Shown here piece by piece: positions 4,235 through 21,973 of a stretch of DNA of 22,164 nucleotides; the stretch's first letter is position 1; every line of letters starts with the position of its first letter. The notes below the pieces were generated by a model that was given only the letters and a program-made list of their open reading frames with translations, made no database searches and was not told the DNA's origin. The translations under genes and the position numbers were made by a program. The stretch is from a virus: the IMG/VR virus record IMGVR_UViG_3300031951_001322, positions 1 through 22,164 of that record; one strand, written 5' to 3'.

Positions 4235-4603
4235 TCAGTTACTCGGTGTGATGATGTTGGTGTTGCCGTTTTCTTGCGGTGTGGTGTCACCATTTTCAGT
4301 GCTGATATACACCTCGCTCGGATTACCGCCGGGGATATTTGTGCCTGTGGGTGTCGTTACCAAACCGTCATCGTTTGTCGCAACGCTAACATCGGGTCGA
4401 GGAAATTGCAAAGCAATGCGCTCTGTCTTGCGTGCAGGCAAACGGTACGGGTCTTTCTGATCCGCGCAGCCTTGTTGGCACACCTTGAGGCCGGGAAAGT
4501 TGGGGTCGGGCATCGCCTCCACGATTGCGCGCTTCATGCGGCAGCGGTCGCAAATGAAGATTGCGATTACTGCATTGCCTTGAGTATTTAAAAATCTTGG
4601 CAT
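4235..4603 (-). CDS. Small phage protein with an N-terminal zinc-ribbon-like site
   Basis: The product has 122 residues. Cys18 and Cys21 (ICDRC) and Cys42 and Cys46 (VCQQGC) form a likely four-cysteine metal site. It is followed by DQKDPYRLPARKTERIALQFPRPD at residues 48-71, where aromatic and proline residues dominate. From residue 72 the tail is Asn, Thr, Gly and Pro rich and probably disordered. I recognise the CDRC...PGL.VC..GC.DQ.DP.RLPAR pattern as a recurring protein of tailed phages near tail or connector genes, but no function is known to me. The gene begins inside the 3' end of the HNH gene (16-base overlap) and stops one base before the fibre start. AGGA lies upstream of its ATG. 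Structural protein or nucleic-acid binding are both possible. Confidence 0.75.
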   Translation of the reverse strand: MPRFLNTQGNAVIAIFICDRCRMKRAIVEAMPDPNFPGLKVCQQGCADQKDPYRLPARKTERIALQFPRPDVSVATNDDGLVTTPTGTNIPGGNPSEVYISTENGDTTPQENGNTNIITPSN

Positions 4604-5112
4604 TGTTCCATCCTGTTGTTCTTGGACAGATTTTCAGATGCCTTGATCACCTGAAGGTTCCATGGCACATGAAAGCCAGACACGCCCTCGCCTCGCATTG
4701 GAATGATGTGATCTACATGGTAATCAAGCCCAATGTTTCTGAGCGCAGAACAATACCTGTAAATGCAATCGATCTCAAATTTTTGCCCAGCGTTGAGCCA
4801 CAACGGAGTTCTTTGAATTTTTGAGGCTTCTCTTTGCTTTCTATTGGCCACGTGTTTGTGGCGGTTGTTCTTCAGCCAAAGTCTTGAATTCTCTTTAATT
4901 CGCTCTTTGTTGTTGTCTCGCCATTTTTTTTGACGGGTTAACTGAGCCTCTCTGTTTTTTTCAATCCTAGCCGCGCCTTCAATGTTGCTACATTGAATGC
5001 AAGTCCTTGTCTTGGTGTATCGTTCCGAGACATGGCCATGTTTACAAACCTTGCCGGTAAAGTATCTGGCAAGGTTCATTTCAACAGCTTCGGAATACGA
5101 CGAGGCTTGCAT
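4588..5112 (-). CDS. HNH endonuclease, probable free-standing homing type
   Basis: The product has 174 residues. The C-terminal HNH site is clear: YHVDHIIP (Asp134-His135), then FHVPWNLQV (Asn152) and ENLSKNNR (Asn161 to Arg167), as in phage HNH nucleases. The N-terminus has FTGKVCKHGH and RTCIQC (Cys23, His27, Cys38, Cys41), a zinc-finger-like module often found fused to such nucleases. Between them lies a basic, asparagine-rich region (about 50-100), plausibly helical and DNA-binding. GAGGT lies before the ATG and the gene starts three bases after the adaptor gene stops. Base composition is visibly richer in A+T than neighbours: two sampled 60-base lines give 27 and 25 G+C, against 38 in a sampled line of the portal gene. 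That suggests a recently acquired selfish gene rather than a morphogenesis component. Confidence 0.88.
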   Translation of the reverse strand: MQASSYSEAVEMNLARYFTGKVCKHGHVSERYTKTRTCIQCSNIEGAARIEKNREAQLTRQKKWRDNNKERIKENSRLWLKNNRHKHVANRKQREASKIQRTPLWLNAGQKFEIDCIYRYCSALRNIGLDYHVDHIIPMRGEGVSGFHVPWNLQVIKASENLSKNNRMEQCQDF

Positions 5113-6183: not shown

Positions 6184-6576
6184 TTACCAGCCGGGGCAAT
6201 TCCACCGCTTGAGCGATGCTTTGGCGCGTGGAGCGTCCCCTTTTGAATGTTCTACAACACCGGACATGCGCGCACAAAAAGAGTCTTTCCGAGCGCCACC
6301 TTGGGGCTGAGGAGCCTTCAGATTCGATCCAGTTTCACGGTTGTATTTTGCCCGACCTTTGGCGGTTAATCCAGCGCCCTTGGACTCTGGAAGTTTCTCG
6401 CCACGGCCAACTGCAAGCGACACGCCGCCTTCTTTCATCTTGGCCGTTTTGGCCGACTGCTTGAATGCTTCAGCCGTGGGAGCGCCTTTGGTGCCGGGCT
6501 TGCGCATCTTCTCTTTCGAGCCTTGCGCTATCCGTTCACGTTTGGCATGGATGTTGGCGTAGAGACCGTTTTTCAT
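6184..6576 (-). CDS. Basic KGG-type phage protein, GRAKYNRETGSNLK family
   Basis: The product has 130 residues and is strongly basic. The N-terminus MKNGLYANIHAKRERI...EKMRKPGTKGAPTA.AFKQSAKTAK is a pattern I have seen repeatedly in phage proteins of unknown function. One MKEGGV motif follows at residues 47-52. The C-terminal half has LTAKGRAKYNRETGSNLKAP and RKDSFCARMSG, ending RWNCPGW, which resembles a widespread phage domain of unknown function (DUF6321-like, from memory). The upstream ribosome binding site is weak, so translation may be coupled to the preceding gene, which stops three bases earlier. Position among head-completion genes suggests a virion or assembly component. Nucleic-acid binding is possible from charge but not shown. 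Confidence 0.75.
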   Translation of the reverse strand: MKNGLYANIHAKRERIAQGSKEKMRKPGTKGAPTAEAFKQSAKTAKMKEGGVSLAVGRGEKLPESKGAGLTAKGRAKYNRETGSNLKAPQPQGGARKDSFCARMSGVVEHSKGDAPRAKASLKRWNCPGW

Positions 6577-6579
6577 AAT

Positions 6580-7152
6580 TTACCAGCAAGACTTTGCCTT
6601 GCCGCCTGTTTTGAATGGAGCAGGTTTACCTTTGCCGATCTTTTCAGACCACTCTTTGCGTGCCTTGTCTGCCATCGGAGGCATCTTGGCGTAGCTTTGC
6701 AGCGTCTTGCTGAGTTGGACGCGACTCCAGCGGTCACTGGCCTTTTTGGCTGCTTCATCATCGCCAGATTTTTTGGCTGCGCTCAACTTTTTGGACACCT
6801 TGTCAACAGCCTTGCGATACTGTTTCGAGCGGCGCTCTTCAGCCTTGACCACTCGGCTTGGCGTCTTGTCCTCTTCCTGCTCATCGTCGTCATCATCTTT
6901 GATGCGGCCGACGGCGCGGTAGTAGTCAATGTCGCTGTCGTAGTCCATGGGGTTTGAACTCACGCGAGTGCGACGTGCGCGGGGAGGCGCATCGTAATCA
7001 TCATCGTCCACAGAACCACCGTAGGCCTTCTTGGCCATGGCCTTGGTCTTGTAGGCGATGGCAACGGCCTGCTTTTGAGGCTTGCCTGCGGCCATCTCGG
7101 TTTTGATGTTTTCCTTAAAGGCCTTGGAGGACTTGGATTTGATCAGTGGCAT
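6580..7152 (-). CDS. Basic/acidic phage protein with MPLIKSKS N-terminus and GG motifs
   Basis: The product has 190 residues. The ATG at 7152 overlaps the TGA of the preceding gene (TGATG); a GTG one codon upstream is less likely. GAGGGG lies upstream. The N-terminus MPLIKSKSSKAFKENIKTE, then GKPQKQAVAIAYKTKA, is a recurrent phage motif (QAVAIAY helix) of unknown role. Two acidic runs (DDDDYD at about 50 and DDDDDEQEED at about 87) alternate with basic stretches, and residues about 100-160 are Lys/Ala-rich helix. GG motifs occur at AYGGSV and FKTGGKAK, and the chain ends KAKSCW. It lies between a beta-rich virion protein and the smaller KGG protein. The function is unknown to me; charge patterning suggests a disordered internal or assembly protein. 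Confidence 0.75.
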   Translation of the reverse strand: MPLIKSKSSKAFKENIKTEMAAGKPQKQAVAIAYKTKAMAKKAYGGSVDDDDYDAPPRARRTRVSSNPMDYDSDIDYYRAVGRIKDDDDDEQEEDKTPSRVVKAEERRSKQYRKAVDKVSKKLSAAKKSGDDEAAKKASDRWSRVQLSKTLQSYAKMPPMADKARKEWSEKIGKGKPAPFKTGGKAKSCW

Positions 7153-7931
7153 CACGGCCCCTCTTTAACTAAAAGCAAGATGAACATCGAGGAAACTGCG
7201 TTGTTGTTTGCACTGCCGATTGCAGTTGCCTCAATCGTGGTTTTCTCTGGTATAGCCAGCGGGTACTCGAACACGTAGTTCGCCACGCCGTTATTAAGCG
7301 TGGTGAGCGCCGCAGTCATGCGGATGTTGTTCACGCCACGGGTCAGCAAACGACCTTCAACTTGGGTTGATCCACTGGCCTGACCAGTCGAGAACAGGCC
7401 TTGGGACACGTATGCGGTGTACCCGGCAGGGACGGTGTAACTGCCCGTGGTGGTGGTGTTGTAGTCAAACTTGATGATGTCGTATGTGGTCGCTGGAACT
7501 CCGGCCGTCACGGTGCCAGTGCCGATGTAGATGTCGCCTGCTGCACTGTTGCCAGAGCCTGCTGTGGCCACGTAGGCGTAGTTCACGCGCAAGAGTGCGT
7601 TGGTCATCGTCACGGCCGTTTGGCCGTTCATGGTGACGGTTTCGGTGACCTCGTTGTAGTTGGCGTTCAACCCTTGCACAACGACCGTGCGAGCACCTGT
7701 GCCTGCGCTTGTATCGTTTGCGCTCGACGAACTGACCGTCATCTGAATTGCAGCGGCTGGAAACGTAATCAGACTTGGCAGTGGCCACACGGACACCTGA
7801 GCGGTGTCAACGTCGGGGTTGAAGCCAAAGATGGTCACGTTCCTGTGGCCCTGAATCTGTCCACGGGAGACTTGCAACTCAAAGGGCTCATAGGCCCCTT
7901 GCCGGGTGATCGACGAGATAGTTGTGCTCAT
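7152..7931 (-). CDS. Beta-rich phage virion protein (259 aa)
   Basis: The ATG at 7931 overlaps the stop of the preceding gene by one base (TAATG). The product has no cysteine and is rich in Thr, Val, Ala, Asn and Gly. Motifs include GHRNVTIFGFNPDVDTA, then VWPLPSLITFP, VQGLNANYNEVTETVTMNGQ, VPAGYTAYV and IPEKTTIEA. The GLNANYNEVTETVT.NG block is one I know from structural proteins of many tailed phages. The ending LLLVKEGP is uncharged until the last residues. A head fibre, decoration or tail surface protein would fit the composition and the surrounding virion genes. No enzymatic motif is seen. The block also resembles part of the 323-residue protein at 9477-10448. Confidence 0.75.
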   Translation of the reverse strand: MSTTISSITRQGAYEPFELQVSRGQIQGHRNVTIFGFNPDVDTAQVSVWPLPSLITFPAAAIQMTVSSSSANDTSAGTGARTVVVQGLNANYNEVTETVTMNGQTAVTMTNALLRVNYAYVATAGSGNSAAGDIYIGTGTVTAGVPATTYDIIKFDYNTTTTGSYTVPAGYTAYVSQGLFSTGQASGSTQVEGRLLTRGVNNIRMTAALTTLNNGVANYVFEYPLAIPEKTTIEATAIGSANNNAVSSMFILLLVKEGP

Positions 7932-8280: not shown

Positions 8281-9465
8281 TCAGCACATGCCGCCGCGAT
8301 TTTTAGGAGTTACCGTGACTGATTTCTCGGTCTTGGTGACACTACCAGCAGGCTTTGTGGCCATGCCTGTAAGGCTTTTGAAGCCCTCCTTGGCGGTCTC
8401 ATACAGCTTGCGAGGTACGGCACGGATGGATTTCGCCATGTTCATGTCTTCCTCGCTCGGGCCAATCGACTTGTCATAAGCACCCTTGGAGGCGTCGCCG
8501 CCTTCAGAGAACTTGTTGACCTTGCCGCCCTTTTTAAAGGTGCCAGATTGCAAGCTGTTGGCTACGGGACGCGAGACGAAGTGACGGGGCATCTTTTCAG
8601 CTTTCCCATCATCGACGACGTTACCCCCCGTAGCATAGGCTTTTTTTGCTGAACCACCTTTCATAAAGCCGCCAGCATTACCTTTGCGAACTTCACCAGT
8701 GGTGGTGCCCTTTACGCCGGGCTTGGAGGTGTTGGCTGGCTTGTTTTCCCAGCAGCCATCACCCTCAACGGTTGCGTCGGTCAGACCGGGAACGTTGCCG
8801 CCTTTTTTGAAGCCGCCTGCGTTGCCCATCTTCACGCCAACGTTGCCGCCAGACTTGTAGCCACCGGGCTTGCCCTCTTTGACTTCACCAGTGCTACCAG
8901 TGGTCGCGCCTTTTTTGGCGGTGTCCATCTTGGTCTTTCCGGTTTTGCTCATGATGATGCCGCCGGAGGCCTTGCCGTGTGCTTTGGAGGCAGACATCGA
9001 CTCGTGGTGCTTCAACTCTTTTGCAAGAGCCTTGCACTCAGCAGAGCCGCCGTCCTTCATGCCAGCCATGGCACGCTGCACCATGGCCGCACGCCTAGCG
9101 CGCTGCGCGGGAGCCATGCCAGCCAAGGCTTGACGGCCCATGGCACGCATAGGCGCAGGAGCAGGCGAAGCAGCCCCAGCAAGAGCGCCGGGCATTGCCA
9201 CAGGCATAGCCCCACCCATTTGCTTGTGAGCGACCTTGCCGCCCTTGGCATACATGTTGGGGTTCATCGAGCGACGACGTTCAGCCATGGATGGCTTTTT
9301 GGGGGCCATACCACTTTCAGCTTCGGCAAAAGGATTGGCACCGGACATGGCTTTGTGGCCATCGTCCTTGCCGCCTTTTGCAGCGACCTTACCGCCTTTT
9401 TTGAGTTTCAGAATGACTGAAGGCTCATTGGTCATCATTTTGACCATTGGTTTGAATTGACCCAT
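8281..9465 (-). CDS. Glycine/lysine-rich protein with about ten GG motifs (394 aa)
   Basis: AGGAG stands six bases before ATG 9465. The product has a short hydrophobic-basic N-terminus (MGQFKPMVKMMTNEPSV) followed at once by KKGGKVAAKGGKD. Motifs of the form [FYKM]-x-x-GG-[KNSD]-[VA] recur at about residues 24, 31, 75, 139, 206, 222, 270, 280, 313 and 322. A longer internal repeat is seen at about 184-222 and 249-281 (TTG..GEV..G..GG[YF]..GG). Residues 91-135 are Ala, Met, Pro and Arg rich. Residues 141-165 hold ECKALAKELKHHE, a short helix. The chain ends NRGGMC. It is very basic, with little predicted globular core. I recognise the style from uncharacterised phage proteins near capsid genes. 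It may be an internal DNA-associated virion protein or an assembly factor; neither is shown. Confidence 0.75.
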   Translation of the reverse strand: MGQFKPMVKMMTNEPSVILKLKKGGKVAAKGGKDDGHKAMSGANPFAEAESGMAPKKPSMAERRRSMNPNMYAKGGKVAHKQMGGAMPVAMPGALAGAASPAPAPMRAMGRQALAGMAPAQRARRAAMVQRAMAGMKDGGSAECKALAKELKHHESMSASKAHGKASGGIIMSKTGKTKMDTAKKGATTGSTGEVKEGKPGGYKSGGNVGVKMGNAGGFKKGGNVPGLTDATVEGDGCWENKPANTSKPGVKGTTTGEVRKGNAGGFMKGGSAKKAYATGGNVVDDGKAEKMPRHFVSRPVANSLQSGTFKKGGKVNKFSEGGDASKGAYDKSIGPSEEDMNMAKSIRAVPRKLYETAKEGFKSLTGMATKPAGSVTKTEKSVTVTPKNRGGMC

Positions 9466-12626: not shown

Positions 12627-13613
12627 TTAGTTGCGGCGACCGTTTTGACGGTCGAATTCAATAAACTGCTTGACCATTCGTGCTTTGCGCTCAGGATTGT
12701 CCCAAGCACCCACTTCTTTCATCGCCTTCACACGTTCGGGCGACAAAACAAATTGGGTGCGGTTGGAACCACCATAAGCCGCTGAAGCCTCGCGTCCTGC
12801 ACTTCCCACAACATTCCTTGGTCGTCTGACATCACGGGTATCCGTGTCATTGGAATCATTGTAACGGTGTGGCAACTCTCTTTGCAAACGGCTATCTAAC
12901 TCGTCCCAGTAATCGGGATCGGTCGGATTCCAGCCTTGAGTTGACATCACCTCATCGATCTTTTTGGCGATGCGGCTATCGGGGTCTGTAGCCGCCGGGT
13001 TGTACCATTTATTGCGGCGCATCCACTGTGCAGCCAGCTTCTGAACCTGTGGATCAGGCAGGTCAGTGTTGTCCTGTTGAGGACGACGCAATTCTTGGTC
13101 AGCCTGCTGGCGCAGGGTCGTCAAATTGCGTGCTTCTTCTTGTGCGGCCTGCCACATGGTCTGTGCTTCGACCATCGCCTCGCCATCGCCGTTCTGAGTG
13201 GCCTCAGCCAGCTTCATTTTGGCGTATTCAAGGCGCGTTTGAGCGTCTTCAATGCCCTTGTCGATGCGAACCAAGTGCTCGGACTTGGTATTGCGCTCCA
13301 ACTGGCTCAAACGGCGCTTGAATTCCTCGTTTTCACGCTGGAGTTGAGTGAGTCGGGCGTCCTTTTCCTGATTTGTCTTGCGAATCAGGTCTTTTTTTGC
13401 CCGGCGACGGCCACGTTTTGCTGCGCGCAGTTCAGCGTCGTCGTCTGGATGGTCTGCATCTTCGTCATTGACGCTGCCACCATCGGCTTTGGAGCCTTGT
13501 TGGTCGTCATTTGGGACGCCATCAAGCATGTTTTCAGGCAAATCGACCACTGCGGAGCCATCTTGCTCCTCCATGATCGCAATATCGTCCTGTTTGTCGT
13601 TCGGATCAGCCAT
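12627..13613 (-). CDS. Scaffold-like head assembly protein
   Basis: The product has 328 residues. AGGAGGG precedes ATG 13613. Residues 1-60 are acidic and begin with EEQDGSAVVDLP at 15-26, a motif shared with the portal. Residues about 61-175 are charged, heptad-like helix rich in Arg, Lys, Glu and Gln (KDARLTQLQRENEEFKRRL), strongly suggesting coiled coil. Residues 190-245 contain QKLAAQWMRRNKWYNP and DPDYWDELDSRLQ. The end FVLSPERVKAMKEVGAWDNPERKARMVKQF is basic and helical, as expected for a capsid-binding scaffold terminus. Location between portal and capsid genes fits a scaffold that templates the procapsid. There is no protease domain. Confidence 0.8.
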   Translation of the reverse strand: MADPNDKQDDIAIMEEQDGSAVVDLPENMLDGVPNDDQQGSKADGGSVNDEDADHPDDDAELRAAKRGRRRAKKDLIRKTNQEKDARLTQLQRENEEFKRRLSQLERNTKSEHLVRIDKGIEDAQTRLEYAKMKLAEATQNGDGEAMVEAQTMWQAAQEEARNLTTLRQQADQELRRPQQDNTDLPDPQVQKLAAQWMRRNKWYNPAATDPDSRIAKKIDEVMSTQGWNPTDPDYWDELDSRLQRELPHRYNDSNDTDTRDVRRPRNVVGSAGREASAAYGGSNRTQFVLSPERVKAMKEVGAWDNPERKARMVKQFIEFDRQNGRRN

Positions 13614-13625
13614 TGTTCCCTCCTG

Positions 13626-14081
13626 TTAGACGTAGGCTTTGAAAGAAAGTGGGTTGCCCGTGACAGTGGCGATCAACTCGTGATCGTTCAGCGTCATGAA
13701 CAGCACCGGGTCTTCGTTCTCTTCATCGGCTGGGCTCTTGATTTCCCAGCGATCACCGCCCCACTTAGGGACTCGAACGAAATCGCCCACCTGTGCCCAC
13801 GCGCCTTCAGGCCACGAAGCCATGGTGTCACGATTTTTGTACGCCAGTGGGCCAACAGCCACGACCTTGCCGATCATGTTGTTCCACTTCTCGTTCTCTT
13901 TGGTCTCTTCGACCAGAACGATGCGTCCTGTTTTCTTTTTGATGCGCCGCAGTTGCACGATTACTCGTCCACCTAGCGGTGCCATCCCCGGCTTCACGTC
14001 AGGGAAAGCCCACGCCAACTCTTGCGGGTCGGGCGTGTCGTCCGTTGCCTCGAAGGCCACGATCTTTTTCACTTCACTCAT
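13626..14081 (-). CDS. GroES-like co-chaperonin
   Basis: I choose ATG 14081 (MSEVKK), six bases after AGGAG; in-frame ATG 14084 and TTG 14087 lie too close to or in that site. The product has 151 residues. From residue 35 it follows GroES/Cpn10: PLGGRVIVQLRR, a loop with KKTGRIVLVEETKE, GKVVAVGPLA, VGDFVRVPKWGGDRWEI and LFMTLNDHELIATV. The tripeptide Ile54-Val55-Leu56 matches the GroES mobile-loop residues that bind GroEL. A 34-residue N-terminal extension and a longer insert near residue 80-97 distinguish it from the host protein (about 97 residues). Position directly before scaffold and capsid genes suggests it works with host GroEL to fold capsid protein, as T4 gp31 does. The domain call is from motif reading only. 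Confidence 0.85.
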   Translation of the reverse strand: MSEVKKIVAFEATDDTPDPQELAWAFPDVKPGMAPLGGRVIVQLRRIKKKTGRIVLVEETKENEKWNNMIGKVVAVGPLAYKNRDTMASWPEGAWAQVGDFVRVPKWGGDRWEIKSPADEENEDPVLFMTLNDHELIATVTGNPLSFKAYV

Positions 14082-14157
14082 CATCAACTCCTAACACCAT
14101 ATTTCAGGTGCATCGTTATGCGCTTGGTCAGCGCGGTCTCACCCCGGAGTGGGGCTA

Positions 14158-14337: not shown

Positions 14338-14494
14338 TTGACTTCTTGGCACCAGACAGGCCACCGCTGCGCTTGGCAGGCTTGCTGTTGCCTCCCTTGC
14401 TTTGCATGGACTGGCCATCTAGCTTCTCACCCATTGCGAGACGCTTGTGCTGAGGCACGTTAATGCCCTTTTGTTCTTGATCAGACGTTGCCAT
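14330..14494 (-). CDS. Very small basic protein between portal and helical protein (54 aa)
   Basis: The frame starts at ATG 14494, inside the last codons of the portal gene, with AAGGAG seven bases upstream, and stops at 14330 overlapping the next start. The product has the features MATSDQEQKGINVPQHKR, then GEKLDG and QSKGGNSKPAKRSGG. It is Lys, Gly and Ser rich and contains one KGGN motif like those in the larger repeat proteins. Good ribosome binding site, tight overlaps on both sides and the recurring motif support expression. The function is unknown. Confidence 0.7.
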   Translation of the reverse strand: MATSDQEQKGINVPQHKRLAMGEKLDGQSMQSKGGNSKPAKRSGGLSGAKKSNA

Positions 14495-16937
14495 TTGGTT
14501 CTCCTTGAGTTGGCATTGAAGGTTCGGCAGGTGCCGATGGTAGTTGAGCAGGAGCCATCTGTTGGATGGTCTGATGCGTCAATTTCGAATTCTCGATTGC
14601 AATCTTGGTTTGATTGTCATCGATGTGCTCTTGCATGTCCTTCTGCAAGCGATCCCTAGCCAACTGGATGTCGGCTTGATCCTTGGCTGTCTTGCGCTGT
14701 GTCTCGGCCATGTTGGTGTCCTTGACCACTTGGGCGTCAGGCGGCAGCACTTGCGGTGCGTTCTTGCGCTGCTGGGCCATCTGGATGAGTTGCGCCAGAG
14801 CCTGCTGGAACTGGCCAAACACCTGCTGGGTGTCGAGCATGACGTGCGCGCCCACGGTGGTGTACACCTTGTCGATGGTGGCCGTGAGTGCTGGATCGTC
14901 GTAGTCGTCCACAGGCTTGCCCACAGAGTCCTCCACGTAGCCGTTCGAGCGGTTGAGGTACCACAGCGTCATGTGCTGCTTCAAGTGCTCGATCAGGTTG
15001 TTGAGGTAGTTCGGGTCTGCGAATGGCGACTGGCCCAAGAACGGGTTGAGCGCGAATTGCAGGTGATCCTGAATGTGCGCGATGTGATCCTGTTGCAGGT
15101 ACGCATAGGCTGGTTGGCCAATGAGCAATGCAGCGTTCTCGTCGGCCGATGTGCGCTGCTCTGGGGCTGGCACGTCCTTCATCAACTCGTTGATGTTTGG
15201 CACCTTCATTTGCTTGAGCATGCGTGAGAGCACGGCGCTCATGTTGAACTGCTCGGGGTGCTTCTCAGCCAGCGCCAGCACGGCTTGGTTCTGAGCCATG
15301 CGCTGGGTCTCACTGAAGATGTGAGGGTCAGACACAGGCACCACGTCGGTGTTCTTCTCGAAGTCGTCGCGTGTGATTTCCAACTCGGCAACCACGTCGC
15401 CCTTCTTCATCTCCTCGAAGTGCCAGCGGTTCAGGCGGCACAGAATCTTCAGCACACGGGCCTGCGAGTCGTGCATGCGTGCGTGGATCGACGAGAACAC
15501 CGCAGCGCCCTGCTCGATCAATGCCTGCGTGGTGCCCACGGGCGCGTTGCTGGTGATGTCGGCGATCTTCTCTTCGCTGGTGGTGACCACGCCCTTGGCT
15601 GCTGTGTCCAGCCAGCCCAGCAATTGGAACAGCACGGGGCTGGGCGGGTTGAATGGCATGGGCATGGCGATCTGGCGAATGTCCTGCACGCCGGGTGCGC
15701 CCTCGATCTCAATGATCTGGGTGACATCGACCTGTTGAGACTGGCCACTGATTTTCGCGCCCTTCAACTTCAGCATGGTGGCCGAGTTGTTGATGTGCGC
15801 AGTGTCCAGCAAGGCACGCAGAGCGCCCGTCAAGGCCGCGCTGAGGCCACCGATGAGGTGAGGTAGGCCAATGGCATATGCGCCCCTCCATGGGATGAAT
15901 TTGAACTCCACGACCCAGTCCAGCTTGGTCATGGTCTTATCTTGCTCTTCCCAGTTGCGGTACAGGCCCACCACTTGGTTGTCGAGTTCATCGACCATCA
16001 AGATGTACGGGGCCATCTCGCCCTTGGTCTTCTTGTCGTCCTCGAGTTCGAGGTAGCAGTAGATGTGGTAGACCTTGCGCAGGCCATCCTTGTTGTCTTC
16101 GAACTGCTTGCCCTCGACCTTGTTGTTGGCCTGCTCGACTTTATTCTGATCCAGCGTGCCCGAGGCTTTGATGTAGTTCACGTCGCGGTACATGCCAGTG
16201 CGGATGCGGCGCTCGAACTCGTACTGGGTGATCTCGTGGACTTCGGCCGCACGCTGGGCCGTGTAGAAGTTGGTGGCGGCGAACGGCAGGATCACACGGT
16301 CGATGGGCAGGAACTCCACGCAAGGGCGCTTCTTCTGCTCGTCGAACCACAGTTTGAAGTACTGCGATCCACCCAGTGGCAACTGCGTGAGCAACTGCTC
16401 TTGCTCGTCCTTGAACTCTTCGATCTGTTCGGTGATCTGCCAATTGAGGTAATCACGCTTGCGCTCTGACTTGGCCGCTTTAAGGTCGTCCATCTTGCCA
16501 AGAATCTTGGTCTTAACGGGGCCGTCAGGCGGGAACATCTCTTTGATGGCGCGGCTGGCAAAGTCCACGCAGCCCTCAGCCATGGCCGGGTGAACCACCT
16601 TGCTGGCACCCATGAACGTGGCACCACCGGGGGCGTCGTTGCCCATGCCAGTGCGACGTATGCCCTCCTCGTACTGCTTGTCGCGCAGTGACCGCGCTTC
16701 CTTGTCAGTCTCGAGCAAGTCAAGGTAGCGGAAAGCCAGATTGGTCAGTTCGCTGGGGTCAATGACGTCTGCGAGGTTGTCGTAGAACTCAGGGTTGAAC
16801 TCGGGGCCGTCCTCGATGGTGACGATGGCCGAGCCATCCGGCTGCTCCTCGGTCTCCAAATCAGGCAGGTCTACAACAGCACTGCCGTCTTCTTGCTCTT
16901 CAATGTCGAAGTCGTTTGGATTTTGTTCGGACATCAT
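14481..16937 (-). CDS. Portal protein, large podovirus/P22-like type
   Basis: The product has 818 residues. ATG 16937 overlaps the preceding stop (ATGA); a second ATG follows directly. Residues 13-25 and 30-42 carry two copies of EEQ.DGSA.V, shared with the scaffold. Residues about 60-140 begin the portal core (LTNLAFRYLDLLETDKEARSL, then PAMAEGCVDFASRAIKEMFPP). Other landmarks are PCVEFLPIDRVILP, the hydrophobic GGLSAALTGALRALLDTAHINNSAT, NPPSPVLFQLLGWLDTAAKGV with TSNAPVGTTQALIEQG, and VVPVSDPHIFSETQRMAQNQA. The C-terminal 150 residues are Gln-rich helix, consistent with a barrel domain. It forms the dodecameric vertex through which terminase pumps DNA. Size and motif order fit the portals of P22-like and related podoviruses. 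Confidence 0.88.
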   Translation of the reverse strand: MMSEQNPNDFDIEEQEDGSAVVDLPDLETEEQPDGSAIVTIEDGPEFNPEFYDNLADVIDPSELTNLAFRYLDLLETDKEARSLRDKQYEEGIRRTGMGNDAPGGATFMGASKVVHPAMAEGCVDFASRAIKEMFPPDGPVKTKILGKMDDLKAAKSERKRDYLNWQITEQIEEFKDEQEQLLTQLPLGGSQYFKLWFDEQKKRPCVEFLPIDRVILPFAATNFYTAQRAAEVHEITQYEFERRIRTGMYRDVNYIKASGTLDQNKVEQANNKVEGKQFEDNKDGLRKVYHIYCYLELEDDKKTKGEMAPYILMVDELDNQVVGLYRNWEEQDKTMTKLDWVVEFKFIPWRGAYAIGLPHLIGGLSAALTGALRALLDTAHINNSATMLKLKGAKISGQSQQVDVTQIIEIEGAPGVQDIRQIAMPMPFNPPSPVLFQLLGWLDTAAKGVVTTSEEKIADITSNAPVGTTQALIEQGAAVFSSIHARMHDSQARVLKILCRLNRWHFEEMKKGDVVAELEITRDDFEKNTDVVPVSDPHIFSETQRMAQNQAVLALAEKHPEQFNMSAVLSRMLKQMKVPNINELMKDVPAPEQRTSADENAALLIGQPAYAYLQQDHIAHIQDHLQFALNPFLGQSPFADPNYLNNLIEHLKQHMTLWYLNRSNGYVEDSVGKPVDDYDDPALTATIDKVYTTVGAHVMLDTQQVFGQFQQALAQLIQMAQQRKNAPQVLPPDAQVVKDTNMAETQRKTAKDQADIQLARDRLQKDMQEHIDDNQTKIAIENSKLTHQTIQQMAPAQLPSAPAEPSMPTQGEPNGNV

Positions 16938-19900
16938 TTAGCCTTTTTGTTCATCATCATTTCGTAGCGCATTGTCCCAGCATTCTTGTGGACGACAACG
17001 GCCTTTTTCGGAGCGACGTGCTTGTGCTCATCGTCACCGTGGCGCATGGTCAGGTGACGCTGGGCCATGCCATTCTGTTCGGGGAATGCATGGAAGTCAT
17101 CATGCCCCATTGCTGGGTGACGGCCAACTTGGCCACCCTCAGCGTAGAACTTGATTGCTTGCGGTGCGCGGTACTCTTTGCCAGCGGCCTTGATCTGATC
17201 TTCTGGCTTGTCAATCTCGTACTCGCCATTGTTCTTTTGCGCGTGCTCGATGTGCTTTTGGTTCACGTTGTGAGTGAACGATGTCTCGTGGCCAATGTTG
17301 CTGGTGGACTCAGTGGGCGTGGTCATCAAGATGTGACCAGCGTCCTTGCCGTTCTTGGTCTTGAAGCGATCCTTGGGCAGGAACTCTGTGTCTTTGAAAC
17401 GTGAGTCGGTCGGGATCATGTGATCCACGGTCTGCATTTCTCCGGTTTTCTTGTTCTTCTTGCGAATGGGCACGTTCACCAAGCGTGGGTGCAGGATGTG
17501 CTGGCGCTGGTAGTCGTAGCGTTTGCCGTCAACGGTCGTGTGGCCGTAGTGGGAGTTTTCCTCGGAGGTCTTGCGGCCGGAGCCGTTGAAGTGGCCTTCT
17601 GGGCCTTCTGCCTTCTCTTCTTCGGTCAACTCGTGTTCGGCACGGCCTGTCGTCCAGTACTTAGCGTGCGTGATGTGCTCCTCCATCTTCTTGGCCATGG
17701 GAGAGCCGCGCTTCACGTCGGTGACCATGTACGAGCCCTTGGGCGGTGTCTTGTTGCCCTGCTCGTTTGTGAAGTCGCCCTTGTTGTCGGCAGCATGGAT
17801 GGTGTTGCGCACACGTGCCTTGTCGCGGCCGATGTTCTCGCTGATCTCCTGACCCTTCTTGACCTTGGGGCCAACGTTGGAGTGAGTCACGTGATAGCCG
17901 TTCTCGGGGTCGTGCAACTCGTTGGTCTTGCCGTATGAGTTGGCAATGATGTCAGGCTTGTCTTCGGCTCTGCGCTGCTCGTTCAAGTGACGGATGGCGT
18001 GGCGTGAGGACACGTCGGTCTCGTCCACCACGTTCGGACGGAACAGCAGGCGCTGGTTGTTCTTGTCTGCCTTCTTGGCTGCTTCGCGCATCGATCCTGT
18101 GTGGGCCAGAATCCAGTCGCGTGTCATGGCTGGGTCGTGTTTGGCCTGCTCGTGTGTTGCGCGGCGCACGGCAGCATGCACGTACTGCGACTCAGCGTTG
18201 GGCGCGAAGCATGTGCCCCTGCTGGTGTCCACAACGCCCTTAGCGTCCTTGCCACCACCGCAGCCCTCGGTCTGGCCGGGGCAGGTGTTGATGACGTGGT
18301 ACTTCATGTTGTCGCCATGGCCAGACGTGTACAGCGCATGGCCTGCTACACCCTTGGATGCAAAGCCCACGTGTGTGCGGCCTTGCTCGTCGGTCTCGTG
18401 GCGCACGGTGTCCAGCTTCTCTGACTCGTCCAGCGTGTTGTTCTTGGCACCCAAGTGCTTGGCGTCACGCAGGCGTTGCGTCGCTTCTTTCTCAGCCGCC
18501 AGTTGCTCTTTGGGTGACTTGGCAAAGTGCTCTGCCAGTGTGTCTTTGTGAATCTTGCCGATTTGGCCAAGGCTCAATGGGTCGCGGTTTTCGGAACCAT
18601 ACACATCGGCACGTGCCTTGTTGATGTCCTTGAGGCCGGGCACCACAACTTTCTTGCCCTTCTTGTTGACCCAGCTACGGCCGTGAAGCATGTGATGAGG
18701 GATCACAATGCCAGTCACACCGCCGGGGCCTTCAGCCTTGATCGTGATGCGCTTGGATGGGGCTGGTGTCGGCTCTTCGTCGTCGTCGCCTGCGTCTGCT
18801 GCTGGCGCTTTCTTTGCAGCCAACTCGGCCTTCATGTCTTCCACCGACTTAGCCGATCCACCCTTGGCCATCCTCTGGCCACCACCCAGAGCGGCCATGG
18901 TCTGCCCTTGGGGCGTCATGGTCAGCATGTTGCCTGCGGGTGGCGTGGGGCCTTGTGGGGCGTTGGGAGGCGCTCCAGCAGGCAGGCCACCGGGCGCGCC
19001 GGGAGCACCGGGTGCTGCACCTTGCGGGGGCTGGGGAAGTGTGGGCATCAGTTGCTGGCCACCTTGCTGTTGGCTCATGTCGATGCCGCCGATGGGCATG
19101 CCACTTGGTGTGGCCACGCCGCCGGGGCTAGGCATGCCGATGTTGCTGGTCTCTGGCGGGAAGAAGTGCTTGGGCGACATGTTCGGTGCCTCGTTCACTC
19201 CCACGTTCTTCAGGTCAACGCTGCTGCTCTTTTGGGCCAGCGCCATTCTCATTTGGGCCAGTGATGGGGTCACATTGCCTCCCTTTGCTTTTTTGATTAC
19301 GTGTGAGTCCTTGCCGTACTTCTCAGCAACGTGATAGCCGTCATGGCCAGCTTGCTTGATGGCGGCTTGGATTCGCGGGTCTTCGATGTGCTTCCAGTTG
19401 CCAGTGGCCAGTGTGTTTGCCAAGTGCTTGGCCACATCGGGAATCTTGCTGAAGTCCTTGTGCTTGGCGGCGATGTCGGCCACCTTCTCGACGTGGTCTT
19501 CGTTCTCGTAGTCAAACGGATTGCTGATCTCTTTGTCTTTGGTGTAGTTCACGTGCTCCTCGGCTTTCCATTCATCCGGGGCCACGGTGCCACCCTTTGC
19601 AAAACCGAACTCCTTCTTCTTGAAGGGCTGGTCGCGGGGCAGGTCGGCCATGCCAGCAGACTTGTTGATGCGGGACACCTCGGCGTCCGACAGCACCTTG
19701 TTGACCTTCATCGATCCACCAATCAGCCAGTTGCCTGTCATGTTGGGGTTCGTCTTGTAGCGGTAGTGGCCACCCTTGGGTATCTGGTCGGTGATGTGAG
19801 CCTTGACGGGCACCACCTTGCCCTGTGCATTGGTGCCGCGCTTGGTGGCCTCTGACTGCCAGTCCACGTCGTCTGGCATCTCCACCTCGGCCCATGCGTG

Positions 19901-20182
19901 GTTGGCAGGGCGGCGGTCGGGCGCGGTCTTCGATGGGTGCGACTTCTCGCCGATGTGGGTGGCGATGGGCAGGTCACCAGCATGCCAGCCGGGACGGTAT
20001 GCAAGGTCGCCGATCTTGGACTTAACCTTGTTGCCACGCATCTCGCCTTCCTTGGCGTCCACCCACTTGTTCATCTCCACAGGCGTGTTGGAGTCCACAA
20101 ACAGCGGGAACAGCTTGCCCGGATGCTCGGGATGCACTCGGAACAATTTGTATGCCTTGACCGTCTTTTTTGGTTCTGCCAT
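16934..20182 (-). CDS. Large multidomain (polyvalent) phage protein, 1082 aa
   Basis: ATG 20182 is preferred to TTG 20194, because GAGGG lies just before it. Residues 1-190 form a domain with YKLFRVHPEHPGKLFPLFVD, YRPGWHAGDLPIATHIG, PVKAHITDQIP and YRYKTNPNMTGNWLIGG, known to me from phage and gut-bacterial proteins without assigned function. Residues about 205-297 hold ISNPFDYENEDHVEKV, GNWKHIEDP and IQAAIKQAGHDGYHVAE, resembling the C-terminal half of ART-PolyVal ADP-ribosyltransferase domains; the N-terminal catalytic half is not seen. Residues 370-425 are Pro/Gly/Gln linker. Residues about 615-780 contain NTCPGQTEGCGGG, GTCFAP and ANSYGKTNE, resembling mycobacteriophage Gp88-type proteins. 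A basic tail ends the chain. GG motifs lie at about 195, 300, 440 and 1016. The protein lies between terminase and portal, so it may be virion-borne and injected. Function is unproven. Confidence 0.78.
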   Translation of the reverse strand: MAEPKKTVKAYKLFRVHPEHPGKLFPLFVDSNTPVEMNKWVDAKEGEMRGNKVKSKIGDLAYRPGWHAGDLPIATHIGEKSHPSKTAPDRRPANHAWAEVEMPDDVDWQSEATKRGTNAQGKVVPVKAHITDQIPKGGHYRYKTNPNMTGNWLIGGSMKVNKVLSDAEVSRINKSAGMADLPRDQPFKKKEFGFAKGGTVAPDEWKAEEHVNYTKDKEISNPFDYENEDHVEKVADIAAKHKDFSKIPDVAKHLANTLATGNWKHIEDPRIQAAIKQAGHDGYHVAEKYGKDSHVIKKAKGGNVTPSLAQMRMALAQKSSSVDLKNVGVNEAPNMSPKHFFPPETSNIGMPSPGGVATPSGMPIGGIDMSQQQGGQQLMPTLPQPPQGAAPGAPGAPGGLPAGAPPNAPQGPTPPAGNMLTMTPQGQTMAALGGGQRMAKGGSAKSVEDMKAELAAKKAPAADAGDDDEEPTPAPSKRITIKAEGPGGVTGIVIPHHMLHGRSWVNKKGKKVVVPGLKDINKARADVYGSENRDPLSLGQIGKIHKDTLAEHFAKSPKEQLAAEKEATQRLRDAKHLGAKNNTLDESEKLDTVRHETDEQGRTHVGFASKGVAGHALYTSGHGDNMKYHVINTCPGQTEGCGGGKDAKGVVDTSRGTCFAPNAESQYVHAAVRRATHEQAKHDPAMTRDWILAHTGSMREAAKKADKNNQRLLFRPNVVDETDVSSRHAIRHLNEQRRAEDKPDIIANSYGKTNELHDPENGYHVTHSNVGPKVKKGQEISENIGRDKARVRNTIHAADNKGDFTNEQGNKTPPKGSYMVTDVKRGSPMAKKMEEHITHAKYWTTGRAEHELTEEEKAEGPEGHFNGSGRKTSEENSHYGHTTVDGKRYDYQRQHILHPRLVNVPIRKKNKKTGEMQTVDHMIPTDSRFKDTEFLPKDRFKTKNGKDAGHILMTTPTESTSNIGHETSFTHNVNQKHIEHAQKNNGEYEIDKPEDQIKAAGKEYRAPQAIKFYAEGGQVGRHPAMGHDDFHAFPEQNGMAQRHLTMRHGDDEHKHVAPKKAVVVHKNAGTMRYEMMMNKKAK

Positions 20183-20536: not shown

Positions 20537-21973
20537 TCATGCCCCATACGGATTCTCCCGGCCGCGCATGTTGAATATCTCTGCGTCGGTGATGTCCTCT
20601 TCCTCGATCTCGTCCCTGCGGGAGAAGTCGATGCTGATCCACCCAGCGTCACGCAGGTACCGCAATCCTTGGCTGATGCAGTCCACGAACTCGTCATGCA
20701 CCGTGCCCTCGGGGAACGAGCAGATTTGGCTGATCATGCCCTCTGCCCAGTCCTTGACGTAGCCCTTGCGCACGCTGCTCTCAGGCACCCACACGCGCCC
20801 TGCCTTGATGATGTTGGCAACGATGGACAGGCGCTGCACCTTGTCGGCCCTGCCGGGGTTGTAGGCGATCACGGGAAGGTGGGCCTGCTGTAAGTCTTGG
20901 ATAAGGGAGATGCCAGCGCTCTTGTCCTCCACGAGGATCACGTCCACCAGCTTGCGGGTCTTGCCCTCACCGTAGACCGTCTCGAACTCGTCGATCACCT
21001 TGGGGCGCAGTTGCGGGTACTGAAGGTGGTCTTGCCAGCAGTCCAGCACCATGACGCACATGCCGCCGTCCTCGGGCTTGAACACGCCCAGCGTGATGCA
21101 CCCAGTCGGGTCGTTGATGGTCTTGTCGCTGGTGGCGCAGTCGTAGGACTGGAGCACGTACTCGAGCCGGGGGAAGGCCTTGCCGTCGGGCCAGAGCCGG
21201 AACCACTCGCGCTTGACGATGCCGCCCTCCTCCGGGTCAATGATCTCAGCGTGAATCTCCTGCCGCCCGAGGTTGGTGCCCTCGTACTGCAAAATCTGCT
21301 TCTGGAAGGACTTGGCCAAGTTGGCGATGTTGCTGTACGTGCTGGCGCGGGTGATCACCACGTCGTCGCCCTCACGCTCGATCAACTCCATCACCACGTC
21401 CTTTGGCTTGGGCGTGGTCGAGCAAATCAGCTTGGTGCGGTTGCCCAGACGGATGCCGAACTGGATCATGTCCCACGACTCGCGCAGGTACTCCCATGCG
21501 GCCAACTCGTCCAGCCAGCCCCCATGGAACTGTGGCCCCCGGAAGCGCTCAGGCTCGGACGCCGGGATACCCTTGATCAGGCTCCCATTGATCAGCGTGA
21601 TCTCGTGCAGGCTGCTGTTGTACTTGGCCACCAACTCAGGCGGGATAACCTTCAGCAGGCCTGAGTCGCCCTCGAAACAGGTGCTCTTCAAGTCGCCACT
21701 GGTGGGCGCGGAGACCAGCCAGCGGGTGTTGGGCTGCTCCCATGCCCACCATGCCAGAGTTTCAGCGGCTGCACGGGTCTTTCCGGCCCCTCGGCCAGCC
21801 AGCATGAGCCAGATGCTCCACCAGTCGCCTATGGGCTCGATCTGGTGCTTGTGGGCCTTGACCTCGAGCCACTCCATCTGCCAGTTGGTGACGATCTGGG
21901 CGATGGGCGTGAGTTTGGTGTACTCCTCGTCGAGGTACTCCGTGTCTTCGAGAATGGCGTCGGCCGTGCTCAT
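20537..21973 (-). CDS. terL: Terminase large subunit (packaging ATPase/nuclease)
   Basis: The product has 478 residues and starts four bases inside the small-subunit gene (ATGA overlap). The ATPase domain shows Walker A AGRGAGKT (59-66, Lys65), the Walker B region GGWLDE (151-156, Asp155-Glu156) and the coupling motif CSTTPKP (184-190). The C-terminal RNase H-like nuclease shows YDCATSDKTINDPTG (Asp278), VILVEDKSAG (Glu349/Asp350) and HDEFVDCISQGLRYL (Asp427, Asp431). Motifs match the terminase RNase H-like domain of phages with headful-like or related packaging. Length is usual. It cuts concatemeric DNA and drives it through the portal encoded downstream. The cut mode (pac or cos) cannot be told from this window. 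Confidence 0.95.
   Translation of the reverse strand: MSTADAILEDTEYLDEEYTKLTPIAQIVTNWQMEWLEVKAHKHQIEPIGDWWSIWLMLAGRGAGKTRAAAETLAWWAWEQPNTRWLVSAPTSGDLKSTCFEGDSGLLKVIPPELVAKYNSSLHEITLINGSLIKGIPASEPERFRGPQFHGGWLDELAAWEYLRESWDMIQFGIRLGNRTKLICSTTPKPKDVVMELIEREGDDVVITRASTYSNIANLAKSFQKQILQYEGTNLGRQEIHAEIIDPEEGGIVKREWFRLWPDGKAFPRLEYVLQSYDCATSDKTINDPTGCITLGVFKPEDGGMCVMVLDCWQDHLQYPQLRPKVIDEFETVYGEGKTRKLVDVILVEDKSAGISLIQDLQQAHLPVIAYNPGRADKVQRLSIVANIIKAGRVWVPESSVRKGYVKDWAEGMISQICSFPEGTVHDEFVDCISQGLRYLRDAGWISIDFSRRDEIEEEDITDAEIFNMRGRENPYGA

Follow-up and report, generated by a model that had tools for sequence, protein, structure and literature searches.

A 1082-residue open reading frame (ORF) in a 22,164-base virus record (IMGVR_UViG_3300031951_001322, the whole of which was analysed and is called the window below) very probably encodes, as judged from its sequence, a modular polyvalent protein of a tailed phage, in which the modules meet at seams marked by a glycine-glycine (GG) motif. 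The ORF is on the minus strand (16934..20182; ATG at 20182, stop at 16934), has an alternative TTG start 12 bases upstream of the ATG, and lies where an earlier reading of the letters of the window (the original prediction) had placed it, i.e., between terminase and portal: the gene at 20537-21973 has a Terminase_6N match (3.6e-25) and the gene at 14481-16937 a PHROG portal match (1.5e-23). In close relatives, the terminase-portal interval is the invariable site of the polyvalent ORF. The best overall explanation, which is considered fairly probable, is that of polyvalent head cargo encoded as an array of cassettes, in which the seam motif would be a docking address and the seam before one module, the Pro/Gly hub c0, would also be an internal start of translation. 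The protein has an unusual and apparently undescribed feature, in that strong combinatorial shuffling goes together with a seam motif that is common to several proteins and linked to the virion-assembly block.

Seam motifs of the polyvalent protein

In the polyvalent ORF, the seam motif has the form [FKMY]A[KE]GGxV/A, the general form being [KYFM]-A-x-G-G-x-[VA]. Four copies are present in the 1082-residue protein, against 0.20 expected from composition-preserving shuffles of the same protein. All four were located by motif scan and are on the minus strand: seam 1, FAKGGTV (residues 194-200; 19583..19603); seam 2, KAKGGNV (residues 298-304; 19271..19291), which was also included in the seam codon analysis; seam 3, MAKGGSA (residues 438-444; 18851..18871); and seam 4, YAEGGQV (residues 1013-1019; 17126..17146). 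The GG positions originally reported (195, 300, 440 and 1016) were right, the motifs beginning at 194, 298, 438 and 1013. Other GG pairs, i.e., IPKGGHY and WLIGGSM within the first domain and those of the Pro/Gly linker, are not seams. The seam consensus has K, M, F or Y at position -3, A at -2 (72%), any residue at -1, then GG, followed by S, A or T and by V at +3 (57%), the preferences for Ala and Val being partly built in by the pattern with which the seams were collected.

In the AlphaFold2 (AF2) model of the full-length protein, the seams (at 198, 302, 442 and 1017) are all in segments with a predicted local distance difference test score (pLDDT) below 50, and are situated between or beside the confident segments (about 220-285 and about 476-748). 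As the overall quality of the model is low (mean pLDDT 49), the low confidence at the seams points to disorder only indirectly. The outcome that the original prediction had named as its refutation, in which the whole protein forms one continuous fold and the GG motifs are buried, was not seen.

Modules of the protein

The N-terminal module, c1 (residues 1-198; 19589..20182, on the minus strand like all modules of the protein), is a phrog_30118 domain, matched over the full profile with an E value of 5.5e-64. Its AF2 model is confident (pLDDT 88.5), and the chains from the Protein Data Bank (PDB) listed at Z of at least 2 in a structural search were nearly all ADP-ribosyltransferases (ARTs), including RES, Arr, DarT and toxin catalytic domains, the best of these matches being weak (Z 4.9, 125 residues, 4.0 A). 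There was no Foldseek match for c1 in the PDB at E<0.001, no PDB sequence relative, and no sequence-profile link between c1 and ART-PolyVal. On the basis of its modelled structure, c1 probably has a divergent ADP-ribosyltransferase fold. At the end of the ART-dominated list of structures is chain B of PDB entry 9k3a, a pre-ejectosome protein of cyanophage A4 (Z 2.4), in which an ART-like domain is perhaps present in a known ejection protein. In other phage lineages, c1 is also part of giant ORFs, about 1400-4060 aa long, that have few or no KGG seams (L157, L163 and L177-L184 among the loci compared).

The second module, c5 (residues 199-302; 19277..19588), represents one half of an ART-PolyVal-type domain, namely the C-terminal one. 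It aligns with the ART module (hhalign 96.5%) and is 38% identical to the ART of locus L081; no Pfam ART match was obtained in residues 199-302, in which only the C-terminal half aligns to ART-PolyVal (PF18760). The catalytic N-terminal half, with its LYHGT-type strand, is missing, and c5 is not a complete ART. The hub, c0 (residues 303-442; 18857..19276), comprises a GGxVxPSxxQMRxAL helix, an NEAP box and a Pro/Gly-rich linker; it is unstructured in the AF2 model and is the commonest module of the locus, with 47 pieces among 78 non-redundant ORFs.

Module c2 (residues 443-1017; 17132..18856) has a GP88-like domain with conserved cysteines and is confidently modelled over the second of the two segments given above. 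Its score against Pfam GP88 (PF17338; E 5.5e-5, 23.6 bits) is below the gathering cut-off of 24.4, and the orthologue in L020 scores 25.0 bits, just above it. The GP88 core of the AF2 model had no significant PDB match, and a link between c2 and c30, the clear GP88 of L083, found no support in an hhalign profile comparison. The protein ends with c3 (residues 1018-1082; 16937..17131), a C-terminal tail that finishes in a short helix and NKKAK. Scans with PADLOC and NCBIfam gave no matches. The domains originally proposed are partly retained: what was called an "ART-PolyVal-like segment" is no more than half an ART (its C-terminal part), the "unknown" N-terminus is probably ART-like, and the GP88 assignment is borderline, being below threshold in this protein.

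Shuffling of modules among relatives

Relatives were collected by a viral-contig search (43 loci) and a portal search (54 loci, mostly new). In about 70 loci in which terminase and portal are both present, the space between them contains 1-3 ORFs of at least 150 aa (the longest has 1998 residues), at least one of which nearly always carries the motif. When these were cut at the motif, the modules fell into 34 recurrent clusters, with 39 left as singletons, and there were Pfam matches to ART-PolyVal (1.7e-34), GDSL lipase (3.6e-13), GNAT (1.7e-6), ASCH (2e-5), PcfJ (8e-8) and GP88. The motifs are the points at which recurrent modules come and go, change their order or become genes of their own. 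The GP88 module is before the Pro/Gly hub in L023 and after it in the studied protein, the ASCH module precedes the N-terminal domain in L002 but follows it in L013, and the hub is ahead of c1 in L040; thus, the orthologues with a different domain order that the original prediction had proposed to look for were found (L013, L023, L040). Orthologues with portals that are 87-95% identical differ in their module sets, and the recurrent parts of the locus are c0 and an N-terminal leader, c4.

Of 249 ends of local alignments with at least 75% identity, 57% lay no more than 10 aa from a motif, compared with 10.7% for random positions and a maximum of 16% in 300 null sets. The pattern used for the figure of 57% was widened after the data had been seen; with the narrower first pattern and no identity cut, 34% of alignment ends were near a motif, compared with 8.4%.

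In some relatives, the locus consists of two to three genes, the split being at a seam in L017 and L026. Where the split gives two genes, a conserved tail, GGxxTHAHHLDIEERPL, is often found at the end of the upstream one (for example L032:4050-4105, L033:2105-2160 and L038:8729-8784), the stop of which overlaps the next start (ATGA), an arrangement that suggests translational coupling.

The motif in the virion-assembly block

The window contains 18 motifs, confined to five of its 21 genes, with none in the remaining 16. Four are in the polyvalent gene, ten in the gene for a KGG-repeat protein, one in that for a scaffold-like protein and three in two small genes (6184-7155). The KGG-repeat protein (394 aa; 8281..9465, minus strand) has its ten copies against 0.44 expected, has counterparts in all five large relatives and belongs to no PHROG or Pfam family. 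The scaffold-like protein (12627-13613, minus strand), so labelled for its position before the capsid gene and its charged helical sequence and not for any family match, carries KADGGSV at 13470..13490, and the scaffold-like proteins of relatives also carry the motif. One of the small virion-block proteins (6580..7155, minus strand) has two motifs, KAYGGSV and a C-terminal FKTGGKA.

The same association was seen in five relatives of 54-57 kb, in which virion-block and polyvalent genes (i.e., genes that resemble those of the window, those in the virion region of MW202545.1 or members of the module set) contain 83 motifs against 6.8 expected from shuffling. The other genes of these five relatives contain eight against 3.3 expected, five of the eight being in small genes near the KGG-repeat gene. 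In MW202545.1, there are 15 motifs (3.4 expected), all in polyvalent and virion-region genes. More distant phages (MW202675.1 and L176, with portals 28% identical) also have seam-bearing polyvalent genes and a KGG-repeat gene. The notion that KGG seams are a general trait of polyvalent proteins was rejected, as none are present in the proteins of Pelagibacter phage HTVC028P and a Dolichospermum phage that have similar modules, and hardly any in the giant ORFs that contain c1. In the limited collection of literature that was searched, there was nothing relevant on a KGG motif in phage virions or on comparable domain shuffling. Two predicted virion-region proteins of MW202545.1 (L048:18832-20070 and L048:20074-21993) are extremely cysteine-rich, with runs like CSCCCSCCC, which is odd for proteins of their kind.

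A candidate internal start before the hub

A candidate internal translation start is situated at 19271..19285 on the minus strand (AAGGGAGGC-AAT-GTG, with the GTG at 19271-19273), and the DNA before the hub module in relatives often reads GGAGGC-NNN-GTG. In 33 less redundant c0 sequences, the seam valine is encoded by GTG in 28/30 cases, compared with 51/138 for the other valines of c0 (Fisher p 6e-9), and the first glycine of the seam by GGA in 22/33, compared with 82/648 (p 7e-12); both p-values are optimistic, given that the sequences are related to one another and that a similar signal would be left by a recombination anchor. Around the seam, codons -5 to +7 show raised synonymous conservation. 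A separate gene begins with GTG at this seam in L017 and L026, and the hub starts its own gene in L083. That the c0 seam is a functional internal start can be given, on these codon signals, slightly less than an even chance. Given such ribosome-binding-site and start-codon features, the hub and the GP88 half of the protein would probably also be made as a separate, shorter protein.

The same observations (the GTG and GGA codons far above those of other valines and glycines in c0, the raised synonymous conservation and the separate c0 genes that start there) would be accounted for if the seams were scars of gene fusion and places of internal initiation, with KGGxV being the in-frame read-through of a Shine-Dalgarno (SD) sequence (AAGGAGG) plus GTG, and having no role in the protein. 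This is unlikely to be the general explanation. Before c1, c2, c3 and c7, the seams have no SD-like codons (0-5 occurrences of GGAGG, at, near or below expectation), and the seam valine is rarely GTG before c3 and mostly absent before c2; a DNA-level origin of all seams was rejected on this ground, and the motif in general appears to be a feature of the protein. Furthermore, an SD sequence does not explain the Ala at -2, and the KGG-repeat protein has its ten copies without module junctions.

Weighing the explanations

The polyvalent protein is likely to be virion cargo, as the original prediction also suggested, and would be loaded into the head and delivered together with the DNA. The gene would be an array of cassettes, i.e., folded effector modules on unstructured linkers that each bear [KYFM]-A-x-G-G-x-[VA]. 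Each motif would serve as a short linear signal through which its module docks to a partner in head assembly, candidates for which are the scaffold-like protein and the KGG-repeat protein, both of which bear the motif; a newly acquired module would thereby be packaged wherever it lands. After entry, the modules, those of the ART type included, would act on targets in the host. A docking tag, although given rather less than an even chance, is preferred to a cleavage site as the role of the motif in the protein sequence. The most specific form of this proposal, in which the motif is a reusable encapsidation tag on modules, scaffold-like and KGG-repeat proteins, and in which selected seams double as internal starts to give both fused and separate effectors, is speculative and rather doubtful as a whole.

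Several points weigh against the head-cargo and docking explanation. Packaging into the virion is deduced from gene position and family, and the docking role of the motif is guilt by association. The giant polyvalent proteins of other phages with related domains are mostly without the motif (L153, L157, L163, L177-L184). The seam KSKGG of L002 is TKDKE in the studied protein and KSKGD in L005; since some seams have lost the motif, it is not needed at every join. The codon signal at c0 might reflect a recombination anchor and not a start site.

If the protein were a polyprotein, in which a phage or host protease cuts at or near the GG and frees effectors during head maturation or after entry, then the position of the motifs at exact module boundaries, in disordered linkers, would be explained. 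The modules also occur as separate genes and can thus act alone, and processing by embedded zincin peptidases has been proposed for polyvalent proteins generally (PMC5512222). However, this account has little probability: Pfam scans of 17 family proteins revealed no peptidase module (a divergent peptidase could escape them), the scanned window genes include no recognisable prohead protease, the split gene of L017 still ends in the motif (LYKSGGIVATQ, then stop), and the motif is also present in the scaffold-like and KGG-repeat proteins, from which there is no obvious reason to release effectors. Of the original suggestion that the GG motifs are linkers or processing points, the boundary part is upheld (they are in segments that appear disordered in the AF2 model, and modules are shuffled there in relatives) and the processing part is not, no peptidase having been found in the 17 proteins.

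A neutral flexible linker or recombination seam, in which GG linkers tolerate insertions and shuffling accumulates with no specific signal, agrees with the predicted disorder of the seams, with those that lost the motif yet kept the fusion, and with DNA at the c0 seam that is conserved enough for a recombination anchor, but is improbable in view of the strong side-chain preferences at -3, -2 and +3 (partly imposed by the pattern, as described above for Ala and Val) and of the restriction of the motif to virion-block proteins, non-modular ones included.

Comparison with known systems

Polyvalent proteins of phages are typically encoded among late virion genes, which is consistent with their packaging (Iyer et al. 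2017, PMC5512222); the original view that a position in the virion block is unlike that of typical polyvalent proteins was mistaken, as this position is the typical one. The present protein, taken with its orthologues, resembles those described: one polypeptide combines several unrelated predicted effector domains, ART and GNAT are among the modules, terminase, portal and virion genes are neighbours, and a role as virion cargo is proposed (PMC5512222). It differs from them in that no zincin peptidase module, which is common but not obligatory, was found by Pfam in the 17 proteins, in that its seam motif is shared with virion-block proteins, and in the very rapid exchange of modules at a single locus; neither "linker" nor "glycine" is used in the text of PMC5512222. 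With a probable ART fold, an ART fragment and a GP88-like domain, it has the at least two disparate predicted domains expected of a polyvalent protein, and the window and about 70 related loci provide the virion or late gene context.

The capsid targeting sequence of the internal proteins of phage T4 is removed by the prohead protease, whereas here the motif is internal and no prohead protease was recognised. In T4, this sequence is a short, linear, N-terminal address of head cargo (PMC9024508). DarB of phage P1 is a very large antirestriction protein in the head that is believed to be delivered, and it has one N-terminal signal, of which 30 residues are sufficient (PMC9024508). The Dar system is thus similar in having a giant protein that is loaded into the head by a short peptide, and dissimilar in that the candidate signal here is internal, recurs with each module and is also carried by other proteins of the virion block. 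The candidate motifs, being internal and repeated, do not correspond to a single N-terminal packaging peptide of the T4 or P1 type, beside which a separate N-terminal signal could nevertheless exist. Phage effectors fused to MuF also combine a variable effector with a constant virion part and are encoded next to terminase and portal; here, the recurrent parts are c0 and c4, and Pfam and PHROGs scans of the studied protein and its relatives revealed no MuF domain.

Neighbouring genes and possible hosts

Within the head block, there is a gene for a GroES-like co-chaperonin (13626-14087, minus strand), the counterpart of which in MW202545.1 is annotated as chaperonin 10. A probable HNH endonuclease gene (4588-5112, minus strand), judged by eye from HVDHIIPMRG...NLQVIKASENLSKNNR, lies between structural genes. 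Relatives of c1 with 75-88% identity are on contigs binned with betaproteobacterial genomes, Rubrivivax included, binning being weak evidence of host for phage contigs; two of these contigs also have the terminase-polyvalent-portal block.

Implications

Loading of large effectors into phage heads is known for few systems, and in these (T4 and P1) it involves single N-terminal signals. If the explanation favoured here is true, a repeated motif, shared among modules and assembly proteins, would be a general loading rule, by which virion cargo could be predicted from sequence. The locus also documents, in nature, the pace at which phages exchange modules directed against their hosts.

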